In this document: positions 36,977-40,590 of the stretch, piece by piece | Layout of the letters: each line of letters starts with the position of its first letter | How positions within the stretch are numbered: the first letter of the stretch is position 1 | From: a virus | Direction: 5' to 3' (one strand) | DNA length: 41,752 nt | Virus record (IMG/VR): IMGVR_UViG_3300010885_025122 | Coordinates: 1-41,752 of that record | Made by a program: the position numbers and the translations under genes | Notes under the pieces: generated by a model | The model's input: only the letters and a program-made list of their open reading frames with translations | Database searches by the model: none | What the model was told of the DNA's origin: nothing

Positions 36977-37501
36977 ATGGGCAAAGACTTAATCGTAATA
37001 CCGGAAGAAGACATCCTCCAACGCATAGTGGCCGGAATGACCGAAGCCCATGTATGTGAAGCACTCAACATTCCAATGATGTCCTTTATCCTTCACATGA
37101 CCCAAAACCCACAGTTCTCTGCTCAAGTTGATTCAGCTAGGGCAATGCGGGCAGAACGATGGGTAGGTAATGTAGTCAATCTTGTTACAACGGCCGAAGG
37201 CCGACCAATCATCCATGACAAAGATGACGTCCCTGGCGTTAAGCTAGCGGTCGACACTTATAAATGGTTGGCGAAAGTAGATAACCCTGAGCGGTATGGC
37301 GATAAGCAATCCATCGAAACCCACAATACCAATGTCCTAGAGATCAAAGGACTGTCGCCACAAGAGGCACTAGACATCTTGCGCTCCGACCCCTTCGCCC
37401 CCGCAATCCCGGCAGAATATACTAATGTTACTGAAGGTTATGGAAAACCGATAACTTCTGAGGAATCCACAAATGAGGATGAAGATGAGGATATGCTTTA
37501 A
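36977..37501 (+). CDS. Candidate terminase small subunit
   Basis: The 174-residue protein lies two genes upstream of the large terminase. Its N-terminal part (EDILQRIVAGMTEAHVCEAL, then a second helix) resembles the helix-turn-helix of phage small terminases, which recognise the packaging site. The middle has a typical helical oligomerisation segment (AVDTYKWLAKVDNPERYG). The end is a very acidic tail (ESTNEDEDEDML). GGAG is present in the leader. The next gene starts inside its last codons in another frame. No database comparison was possible, but position and pattern agree. Confidence 0.68.
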   Translation: MGKDLIVIPEEDILQRIVAGMTEAHVCEALNIPMMSFILHMTQNPQFSAQVDSARAMRAERWVGNVVNLVTTAEGRPIIHDKDDVPGVKLAVDTYKWLAKVDNPERYGDKQSIETHNTNVLEIKGLSPQEALDILRSDPFAPAIPAEYTNVTEGYGKPITSEESTNEDEDEDML

Positions 37502-37931
37502 CGATAGAGCTGAAGCCATGATTGGATATGGCTTACACTTCATCGGCACTCACTATGTCTGGGGTGGGAAAGAGCTGAAGAAGGACTCTGGCTATGATTG
37601 TAGTGGCTTTGTGCAAGAACTCCTCGAATCCATTGGCATCGTGTCATCTGGCATTAACAATGCTATGTCTTCACAGCAGCTATTCGACAAACTGCACTCA
37701 CATGTCCAAGGGCAGAAGGTGTCCGGACCTGGCGACATCCTATTCTTCGGCAAAGACCTAAACTCCCTCAACCACATTGCCATCGCGCTATCCGACAAAT
37801 TGATGTTGGAAGCTGGTGGTGGGTCAGATACATTAAAGCAGTCAGGGATGGTGCGTATGCGTCCGATCCGTAAGGACTGTGTAGCAATCCTGCCATTAAA
37901 CGAATTGATAGATAAAGGAGTCAGACTATGA
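37473..37931 (+). CDS. NlpC/P60-type cysteine peptidase (endolysin or virion lysin)
   Basis: The 152-residue protein has the NlpC/P60 core: Cys43 in GYDCSGFV, GPGDILFF, and His101 in LNHIAIAL. These enzymes cut the D-Glu to diaminopimelate or Lys bond of peptidoglycan. It begins at ATG 37473 eight bases after GAGGA; two more ATGs follow within 15 bases. It overlaps the terminase small subunit gene by 29 bases in another frame. It lacks a signal peptide or a cell-wall-binding domain. Placement between the terminase genes is odd for an endolysin, so it could be a virion-associated hydrolase. No other lysin candidate was recognised. Confidence 0.8.
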   Translation: MRMKMRICFNDRAEAMIGYGLHFIGTHYVWGGKELKKDSGYDCSGFVQELLESIGIVSSGINNAMSSQQLFDKLHSHVQGQKVSGPGDILFFGKDLNSLNHIAIALSDKLMLEAGGGSDTLKQSGMVRMRPIRKDCVAILPLNELIDKGVRL

Positions 37932-38128
37932 GCGACGAACCAAAGAAGCGTGGACGCCCTGCAAAGAGCGACTTGCCAAAAGAGATCCGTGAGAACATCG
38001 TGGAGTCAAACCTCCCGGAGCATGTACTCGACGCTATCGAAGAAGCTGTAAGCCAAAAAGAAGAAGAGGATAAGCCAAAAAAGCTTGTTGGCCGTAGCCC
38101 GATTGATGGGTCAGACGTTTGGATGTAA
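37928..38128 (+). CDS. Small charged protein with AT-hook-like motif
   Basis: The 66-residue product has KKRGRPAK near the N-terminus, a typical AT-hook that binds the minor groove of AT-rich DNA, followed by acidic helices. AAAGGAG precedes the ATG, which overlaps the peptidase stop. TerL starts at a TTG within its last codons. It may help terminase recognise or hold DNA, but no family is recognised. Confidence 0.55.
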   Translation: MSDEPKKRGRPAKSDLPKEIRENIVESNLPEHVLDAIEEAVSQKEEEDKPKKLVGRSPIDGSDVWM

Positions 38129-40590
38129 ACAATTCCAGGATCCAGCTAACGGCAAAGGTTATCACCGACCTTGCCGCGGGGTGGACGCCGCATGAAGGAC
38201 AGATAGAAGTCCTCCGCCCACTACTGTATGGTGGGAAAAAGCGCATTTTCGTAGAGTGCGGACGTAAGTTTGGTAAGCAAATAGCTTTAAGTGAGGACAT
38301 CCTTACCCCCTCAGGATTTATTAAGTACGGAGACCTCAAGGAAGGCGACATTGTCTACGATGAGCGGGGACAACCTCAAAAAGTTATTGGGCTATCTCCA
38401 ATCAACTACAGCCCTGAAGCGTACCGCGTAACATTCTGCAATGGAGAGTCCGTTGTTGCCTGTGCGGAACACAGGTGGCTGACCCACACCAAGCTTAATA
38501 GGAAGTCGGAGTGTCGGTTTCCAGGGTCACAGACTCCGACGATAAAGACCACGAAAGAGATTAAAGAAAGTCTGATGCACGGCAAGGAGTTCAATCACTC
38601 TATTCCGTACACTAAGCCAGTATGGATTCCAGAGTCCCAACTTCCTGTTGACCCCTATATATTAGGCGTGTGGTTAGGGGATGGGTCTAAGGATTCAAGC
38701 CGATTTACTTCAGTAGACGCAGAGATTGTAGAATACATAAACAAACAATACCCGGTCACAAGCTACACCCACAAAGAGCACGGCGCCCGCGGGTTGGTGC
38801 AAGCCCTCCGTCCACTAGGCGTTGTTGACAATAAGCACGTCCCCGCCGAATACCTTATGGCTAGCATTGAGCAACGCTTGGCGCTTCTACAAGGATTAAT
38901 GGATACTGACGGCACAATCAATAAATCCGGCAACCATTGTTGCTTTGACAATACGAATAAATCTCTAGCTGACGCGGTGTTCTGCTTAGTCGCGTCCCTT
39001 GGGATGAAGCCAATTAGGAAAGAAAGATGGGGGAAGCTATACGGAGTGCAGCACAAACTGTGCTATCGAATTTGCTTCCAACCCCTCATGCCCGTGTTTA
39101 GATTGAGTAGAAAGTTGGGCAAAATATCAATGCCCAAAAAGACATTGCACCACACAATTGTTTCGGTAGAGCCAGTAGAGTCGGAGCCAATGCGCTGCAT
39201 TTCGGTAACGGGAAACAGCCACCTTTACCTTATTGGGAAAAGTCTGATCCCCACCCACAATACGGAGTCCGTCCTGTACCTACTGCATCGTGAAGCCATG
39301 CAAAATCCCAATCACCACTACTACTTCATCGCACCAACCATCAAGCAAGCTCGAGAACTTATCTGGGAAAACAATCGACTCAAAGGATTTCTCACACCGG
39401 AGGTCACGGCTCGGTATGTCTACAAAGACTATGAACAAGATATGCGCCGGGTGTTTAACAATGGGTCATTCATCAAGCTAGATGGTGCGGATAACTGGCC
39501 ATCATACGCCGGTATCAACCCACATGGACTTGCTTACGACGAATTTAAGGACATTGACCCCAGATTCTATGACGTCATGGAGCCGAACTTGGCATCTAAG
39601 GACGCATGGATGTACATTGTCGGCACTCCACCCGATTCTGAGGAAAACCTATTCTGCCGACTTGCAGAAGAATTTAAGTCTGACGATCAATCCGACTATT
39701 TCAACATGCCGACTTGGACCAATCCCCACATTCCTGCAAAATGGCTGGATCGTCAGAAAGAACGTCTAATCTCCCGTGGCGATCATCACGTATGGCTGAG
39801 AGAGTATGAGGCAAAGCGCGTACGCGGTGGCGCCCGTTCTATCTTCCCTATGTTCGAGCCAGCAAAGACCAACCCAGTCAGCGGGGAAGTGTTGGAGTTT
39901 ACCCGACACGTACGCCCGGAAGGGGAACTTGAAGCCGAGATACGCCGACATCAGCGCGACTACGAGTTCTACCAAATCTTCGACCCTGGTTCTGTCGTGT
40001 GTTTTGCAGTTATCTTTGCTGCGGTCCACAAATACTCAAAGAAAGTCGTTATCCTTGACGAGATATATGAGAAGGACAAGGCGAAAACCTCAACCAAGCA
40101 GATATACCCACGCGCCATGCAGATGTATGCTAAGTTTGGAGTGCCCGGTCACAAAGTCCACAAGGTATTCGACTACGCTGCCCAGTGGTTCGCCAATGAG
40201 GTAGCAGCGGAATACGGCGAAGGACTTATGCCGTGTACGAAGGACTTGAACGATAAGGAAAATAAGCTATCGGTCATCAAAGACTTCATGGTTGCCAGTC
40301 TTTTTGAAGTTGGGCAGAAGTGTAAGTGGACTGTATGGGAGATAAGTAACTACATTGTCGACGATAACGGCAAGATCCCCAAGAAGAATGACCACATCAT
40401 CGACGCCCTTCGCTACCTATTTAATGCCGCCAACCTCCGCACAACTCCGCGTGAGAGATATGTCCGCGACCCCGATAGTCGGATTTGGGTGCCGGAGCAT
40501 GATTCAGAGTTTGCAGATGAAGGACTAATTGGGTTAGACTTTTACCAAGATTTAGATGAAGATGAAGAAACAGAGGGCACATACGCATGA
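38119..40590 (+). CDS. Terminase large subunit (TerL) interrupted by an intein
   Basis: The precursor has 823 residues; after splicing 495 remain, normal for TerL. The ATPase Walker A is split: ECGRKFGK (46-53), then Thr382 onward (TESVLYLL). Walker B is LAYDEF (Asp474-Glu475). The nuclease domain has Asp622 in IFDPG, and a late DHIIDALRYL motif with Asp762. Translation must start at TTG 38119: an in-frame stop lies at 38104-38106 and no ATG occurs before the intein. It overlaps the preceding gene by ten bases. It translocates DNA into the prohead and cuts concatemers. Without splicing the P-loop would be broken, so splicing is needed for packaging. Confidence 0.93.
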   Translation: MDVNNSRIQLTAKVITDLAAGWTPHEGQIEVLRPLLYGGKKRIFVECGRKFGKQIALSEDILTPSGFIKYGDLKEGDIVYDERGQPQKVIGLSPINYSPEAYRVTFCNGESVVACAEHRWLTHTKLNRKSECRFPGSQTPTIKTTKEIKESLMHGKEFNHSIPYTKPVWIPESQLPVDPYILGVWLGDGSKDSSRFTSVDAEIVEYINKQYPVTSYTHKEHGARGLVQALRPLGVVDNKHVPAEYLMASIEQRLALLQGLMDTDGTINKSGNHCCFDNTNKSLADAVFCLVASLGMKPIRKERWGKLYGVQHKLCYRICFQPLMPVFRLSRKLGKISMPKKTLHHTIVSVEPVESEPMRCISVTGNSHLYLIGKSLIPTHNTESVLYLLHREAMQNPNHHYYFIAPTIKQARELIWENNRLKGFLTPEVTARYVYKDYEQDMRRVFNNGSFIKLDGADNWPSYAGINPHGLAYDEFKDIDPRFYDVMEPNLASKDAWMYIVGTPPDSEENLFCRLAEEFKSDDQSDYFNMPTWTNPHIPAKWLDRQKERLISRGDHHVWLREYEAKRVRGGARSIFPMFEPAKTNPVSGEVLEFTRHVRPEGELEAEIRRHQRDYEFYQIFDPGSVVCFAVIFAAVHKYSKKVVILDEIYEKDKAKTSTKQIYPRAMQMYAKFGVPGHKVHKVFDYAAQWFANEVAAEYGEGLMPCTKDLNDKENKLSVIKDFMVASLFEVGQKCKWTVWEISNYIVDDNGKIPKKNDHIIDALRYLFNAANLRTTPRERYVRDPDSRIWVPEHDSEFADEGLIGLDFYQDLDEDEETEGTYA
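38278..39261 (+). mobile_element. Class 3-type intein with LAGLIDADG endonuclease
   Basis: The 328-residue insert starts at Gln54 (GK-QIALSEDILTPSGF) and ends IPTHN381, followed by Thr382 (+1). Residue 1 is not Cys or Ser. Instead there are Trp120 in AEHRW (block B), Cys360 in MRCISV (block F) and Thr379 in THN (block G): the WCT set that defines class 3 inteins, where the block F Cys is the first nucleophile. Both endonuclease motifs are intact: ILGVWLGDG (181-189) and LLQGLMDTDG (256-265). It should therefore be able to home into intein-less terL genes. The host motif is the P-loop, the most conserved site in TerL. Confidence 0.92.

Follow-up and report, generated by a model that had tools for sequence, protein, structure and literature searches.

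Computational analysis of the window, the whole stretch of DNA studied here (an entire IMG/VR virus record of 41,752 bases), defined the anatomy and boundaries of an intein in the P-loop of the terminase large subunit (TerL), its affinity with class 3 inteins, and a covariation across its relatives between intein residue 1 and block F position 2 (F:2). The intein very probably belongs to class 3, with splicing expected through Cys307 and Thr+1, as judged from sequence, a predicted structure and analogy with studied members. Its glutamine at residue 1 (Gln1) is ordinary within that class; the coupling of residue 1 to F:2 appears to be the newer observation and the part worth following.

An intein in the TerL P-loop

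The packaging cassette lies at the right end of the window (Table 1), where TerL is followed on its 3' side by a short ORF and then the portal gene. A Pfam search with the 66-codon ORF upstream of TerL returned no match. A search of phage records for DNA similar to the window gave no match, near-identical or otherwise, and named phages yielded no TerL relative at 60% identity or above. The metagenomic relative L179 has the gene order of the window (NlpC/P60 gene, TerL, short ORF, portal-like gene), with the NlpC/P60 gene likewise directly upstream of TerL.

The P-loop of TerL is split between its Lys and Thr by 984 in-frame bases, with junctions reading GRKFGK/QIALSEDILTP...CISVTGNSHLYLIGKSLIPTHN/TESVLYLL and the intein ending in HN; intein and exteins are alike in GC content (0.48 and 0.49). 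The TerL of L179, whose C-extein equivalent is 74% identical to that of the window, is intein-less and spans the junction as FVECGRKFGKTESTLYLL (uninterrupted GRKFGKTESTLYLL, containing GRKFGKTES). Because this P-loop is uninterrupted, both splice junctions are fixed without assuming intein motifs. The comparison confirms two features of the original prediction: Gln, encoded by CAA, as the first intein residue and, together with the translation, Thr at +1.

Table 1. Features of the packaging cassette, TerL and its intein (window coordinates; intein numbering for residues)
Feature	Position	Strand	Remarks and basis
Terminase small subunit	36977-37501		Sf6-like
NlpC/P60 hydrolase gene	37473-37931		Between small and large terminase genes
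66-codon ORF	37928-38128		Overlaps TerL start; opens with MSDEPKKRGRPAK, AT-hook-like
TerL gene with in-frame intein	38119-40590	+	TTG start; ORF; PHROG terminase large subunit families; L179 identity
N-extein	38119-38277	+	Ends in P-loop half GRKFGK; translation; uninterrupted GRKFGKTES in L179
Intein, very probably class 3	38278-39261	+	328 aa; splicing domain and LAGLIDADG homing endonuclease
Gln1 (CAA)	38278-38280	+	Non-nucleophilic first intein residue; Gln54 of the TTG-started ORF
Cys62, block B:7	38461-38463	+	Most Ala1 class 3 inteins have Asp here; alignment and covariation
His65, block B:10, catalytic His	38470-38472	+	Equivalent to MchDnaB1 His65 (PMC7664689)
Trp67, block B:12, W of WCT	38476-38478	+	Alignment with class 3 inteins
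LAGLIDADG motif 1	38650-38685	+	DPYILGVWLGDG; catalytic Asp135
Lys186	38833-38835	+	Aligned with PI-SceI chain position 301; invariant in relatives
LAGLIDADG motif 2	38878-38913	+	LALLQGLMDTDG; catalytic Asp209
Met305, block F:2	39190-39192	+	Covarying partner of residue 1; covariation
Cys307, block F:4	39196-39198	+	Expected nucleophile and branch point; equivalent to MchDnaB1 Cys124
Thr326-His327-Asn328, block G:5-7	39253-39261	+	T of WCT; cyclising Asn
Thr+1	39262-39264	+	P-loop Thr, expected second nucleophile; translation, L179 comparison
C-extein, remainder of TerL	39262-40587	+	PHROG families; L179 identity

Class 3 placement and expected splicing route

A phmmer search of the intein against PDB chains returned first MchDnaB1 (6RIX, E 1.4e-13) and then MsmDnaBi1 (6BS8, 4.4e-13), and its H, W, C, T, H and N residues are in register with both: His65 lies on His65, W67 on Trp67, C307 on Cys124 and T326 on Thr143 of MchDnaB1 (catalytic residues numbered as in PMC7664689). 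This alignment places at blocks B, F and G the residues originally assigned there as Trp120, Cys360 and Thr379, which are W67, C307 and T326 (the WCT set) once ORF numbering is converted to intein numbering. A profile built from 12 relatives, window included, matched class 3 structures at ~4e-35, compared with 6e-14 for the class 1 intein gp41-1 and 0.06 for a DnaE intein. The AlphaFold2 model of the window intein, made from an input alignment of 61 sequences, was confident (pLDDT 97.1, pTM 0.93), and the predicted fold was fitted best, among splicing-domain-only chains, by 6BS8 (Z 22.2, rmsd 1.3 Å over 125 residues) and 6RIX (Z 22.2, 1.6 Å over 130); matches to gp41-1 (Z 18.7) and to the Ssp and Npu DnaB, RecA and NpuDnaE class 1 inteins (Z 17 or less) were weaker. 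In the tree, all WCT inteins, that of the window included, were separated by a 100/99 branch from an outgroup of four class 1 inteins, each inserted at Walker B in a gene also bearing a Gln1 class 3 intein; the outgroup branch is long, and therefore the profile and fold rankings are stronger evidence of class than the tree.

The window intein has the residues by which class 3 is recognized: a residue 1 other than Cys, Ser or Thr (usual in the class but not absolute), WCT, His at B:10 (H65), a penultimate His (H327), Asn at G:7 (N328), and Ser, Thr or Cys at +1 (here Thr); moreover, profile, fold and tree all place it with class 3 and apart from class 1. In class 1 inteins the first nucleophile is a Cys, Ser or Thr at residue 1, a role that does not fall to Gln1, and class 2 inteins have neither a residue-1 nucleophile nor WCT and reside in KlbA, whereas here WCT is present and the host is TerL. 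The class proposed at the outset is thus supported by sequence, profile, predicted fold and tree; the accompanying description of class 3 inteins as uncommon was overstated, since 1701 had been counted in nr by 2020 according to PMC7891396.

MchDnaB1 and MsmDnaBi1 resemble the window intein in that residue 1 is neither Cys nor Ser and in the fit of the modelled structure across the whole splicing domain (rmsd 1.3-1.6 Å), but they are mini-inteins without an endonuclease and have Val at F:2 and Asp at B:7; MchDnaB1 combines Ala1 with Ser+1, whereas the window intein has Gln1, Met305, Cys62, an endonuclease and Thr+1. Mycobacteriophage TerL inteins, as described in PMC5050341, share the phage TerL ATPase host; TerL1-a occupies the same Lys/Thr position of the P-loop, and TerL1-c, d and e have class 3 splicing domains. 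The mycobacteriophage inteins matched here differ in being ~37% or less identical to the window intein, which has Gln1.

The splicing chemistry and activity of the window intein can be proposed by analogy with the studied class 3 inteins, following the scheme in PMC5222942, PMC7664689 and PMC7891396. Gln1 is incapable of an acyl shift; Cys307 (F:4), aided by His65 and Thr326, would attack the Lys(-1)-Gln1 bond to give the branched thioester specific to this class, its acyl group would move on to Thr+1, Asn328 would cyclise, and an O-N shift would then restore the GRKFGKTES P-loop. Gln1 may be fitted by a matched pocket of Met305, Cys62, Ala48 and Pro46, replacing the Val, Asp, Cys and Arg or His of Ala1 members, a proposal read entirely from the covariation described below. 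The window intein has Cys62 at B:7 (N3:7), the position whose side chain, in the precursor structure of AceL NrdHF, makes hydrogen bonds around both the N-scissile bond and the carbonyl of residue 1 (PMC7891396).

Taken by itself, Gln1 is as compatible with class 2 as with class 3. A class 2-like route, with Thr+1 attacking the N-junction directly and Cys307 dispensable, was weighed, and we regard it as very unlikely: the window intein has His65 and the complete WCT set, class 2 is known from KlbA only (as given in PMC3196547), and PMC5222942 found Cys at F:4 essential in each of the three class 3 inteins that it tested. That Gln1 abolished splicing, leaving a decayed intein and a dead TerL or defective phage, is also improbable, if a little less so. 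Decayed class 3 inteins do exist, among them Arth_1007 (PMC3196547) and one at L189 in this analysis, but the window has kept the reading frame, the H/W/C/T/H/N residues, the endonuclease core and an intact TerL, and Gln1 recurs in 16 other dereplicated relatives. That errors in sequencing or assembly turned an Ala1 or Cys1 codon into Gln1, an idea for which the origin of the window as an IMG/VR record with no near-identical phage DNA leaves some room, is scarcely credible given that CAA is at least two bases away from every Ala or Cys codon and that many other contigs have Gln1 with the same partner residues.

Residue 1 and its coupling to block F

Class 3-like loci were gathered from IMG/VR, GTDB genomes and named phages, and their inteins, extracted by tblastn and dereplicated at 85%, gave 213 relatives. 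H65, W67, C307, T326 and N328 are invariant (213/213) and the penultimate His nearly so (211/213), although the invariance of H65, W67, C307 and T326 arises in part because class 3 queries were used to collect the set. Residue 1 is Ala in 135 relatives, Leu in 19, Gln in 17, Met in 14, Arg in 6 and Gly in 6, the rarer states being Pro (6), Cys (3), Asp (3), Glu (2) and Ser (2); it is other than Ala in 70 of 140 viral sequences versus 8 of 73 from genomes. Judging from these sequences, Gln1 is a recurrent minority state of class 3 inteins, with a share that 17/213 overstates because two locus searches used Gln1 seeds. The originally noted pairing of Gln1 with the class 3 signature in the TerL P-loop is therefore real, while its exceptional status was overstated.

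Among the inteins that occupy this site in related TerLs, L019 has Ala1 (C-extein 42% identical) and L028 has Gln1 (38%). Fifteen Gln1 class 3 inteins of uncultivated viruses (L020, L021, L022, L025, L181, L182, L184, L188, L217, L262, L264, L265, L048, L079 and L028) share Gln1, WCT, Cys62 and, L028 excepted, Met at F:2 with the window intein, and are inserted after GK, GR or, in L217, SK. They differ in being only ~40-48% identical to it and in residing in other proteins or TerL families, again except L028, whose TerL is the relative cited above. Of 11 stretches matching a degenerate Gln1 junction pattern, six contain this class 3 intein family and the others gave no intein match, and a locus search from one Met1 intein added few loci. 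A literature search on Gln1 inteins, with the list of Tori and Perler (2011) outside its scope, yielded no relevant paper and no biochemistry for a Gln1 class 3 intein.

The identity of residue 1 is accompanied by that of F:2 (Met305 in the window), two positions before the catalytic Cys307. Inteins with Ala, Pro, Ser or Cys at residue 1 have Val at F:2 in 120 of 146 cases, those with Gly or Asp have Thr in 8 of 9, and those with a bulky residue 1 (Gln, Glu, Leu, Met or Arg) have Met in 49 of 58, versus 7 of the remaining 155; when only sequences less than 50% identical are counted, Met occurs in 20/26 bulky members versus 5/63 of the rest. The Gln1 exceptions are L028 (Gly) and L016 (Ser). 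Of 51,360 column pairs scored by corrected mutual information, that of residue 1 and F:2 stands 7th, and position 305 is also coupled to positions 48 (rank 1), 43, 46 and 62. Positions 43, 46, 48, 60 and 62 change along with residue 1: the usual Ala1 set is M43, R46 or H46, C48, D62 and V305, and the Gln1 set is N43, P46, S48 or A48, C62 and M305, the window having A48.

Simple association p-values for the pair ignore relatedness. In trees built without the covarying columns, a bulky residue 1 takes 20-21 changes, at least 5-9 of them on supported branches. Among supported independent pairs, Met followed in the same direction in 7.2 and in the opposite direction in 0.3 under one model (median p 0.03), and in 4.5 versus 0.4 under the better (mixture) model (median p 0.125); the same test split into splicing domain and endonuclease was underpowered. 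In 33 held-out, previously unused sequences (23 new viral, 10 named phages), two of the four bulky members and none of the 29 small ones had Met at F:2 (Fisher p 0.011), and Gly1 was paired with Thr in 5 of 5; these loci agree in direction with the covariation.

The covariation probably reflects a structural coupling at the N-junction pocket, one not yet separate from shared descent; its independence from descent is suggestive, not proven, with the strict phylogenetic test borderline. We give even chances to the proposal that class 3 inteins hold alternative matched active sites, one with Ala1, Val at F:2, Cys48 and Asp at B:7 and another with a bulky residue 1, Met at F:2, Ser or Ala at 48 and often Cys at B:7. 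Shared descent of splicing-domain sub-lineages might alone account for the pattern, a reading that leaves the class assignment untouched and that we hold possible, though below even chances. It is favored by the splicing-domain tree retaining the trait columns, in which the window clusters with inteins of mostly bulky residue 1, and by the weakness of the strict independent-pair tests; it is harder to reconcile with the ~20 changes seen once those columns are removed, with Met following in nearly all informative pairs, with the third state in which Gly1 or Asp1 is paired with Thr, and with the held-out loci.

Taken alone, the intein is one further phage TerL class 3 intein. Were the matched sites real, residue 1, released from acting as nucleophile once block F had taken on that task, would be under constraint as a substrate-positioning residue, and switching it would need compensatory changes. 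The N-junction pocket would then have been rebuilt several times in class 3 inteins, which would bear on the origin of the class; WCT grafted onto the class 1 intein gp41-1 failed, compensatory mutations being wanting (PMC7664689). The coupling would also name the few residues to alter when a class 3 intein is designed to begin with another residue. The class 3 intein literature searched, a scope outside which lie Tori and Perler (2011) and the supplementary tables of PMC7891396, gave no account of it.

The homing endonuclease and inteins at related loci

Pfam LAGLIDADG_3 (PF14528) and Hom_end (PF05204) both score above cut-off in the intein, which contains two LAGLIDADG motifs, the catalytic Asp pair and the block D Lys; D135, D209 and K186 are nearly or fully invariant among relatives. 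PI-SceI (VMA1) shares these catalytic residues and the two-domain architecture of the modelled intein (Z 26.4 over 319 residues), but is a class 1 intein with Cys1 and without WCT. The endonuclease core looks intact by its sequence, and since its domains and catalytic residues have been kept, the intein is probably a mobile element, which would home as studied class 3 inteins do. An L179-type allele can serve as a natural model of the empty homing target, though the flanks diverge: over 30 bases to each side of the insertion site, window and L179 are 80% (left) and 57% (right) identical.

Several other inteins were noticed among the collected loci. L021, L022, L181 and L184 have a second, class 1 intein at a Walker B-like site (DE/CFPY...VYDIE...HN/CQD), a few residues downstream of the Gln1 class 3 intein in the same gene; with sizes of 138-357 aa, some of these are mini-inteins. 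L189 (2498-3568) bears an apparently decaying class 3 intein that has lost the F:4 Cys, G:5 Thr and penultimate His, with stops directly after it. Three inteins with the full WCT set have Cys at residue 1 (L002, 2998-4038; L006, 2998-3987; L010, 2264-3271), and from these residues either a class 1 or a class 3 first step could be usable. Finally, phages FL04 (L365), Gaia (L362) and LittleE (L367) have intein-bearing terminase genes, and in some phage records the public annotation is "replicative DNA helicase" or "exonuclease".
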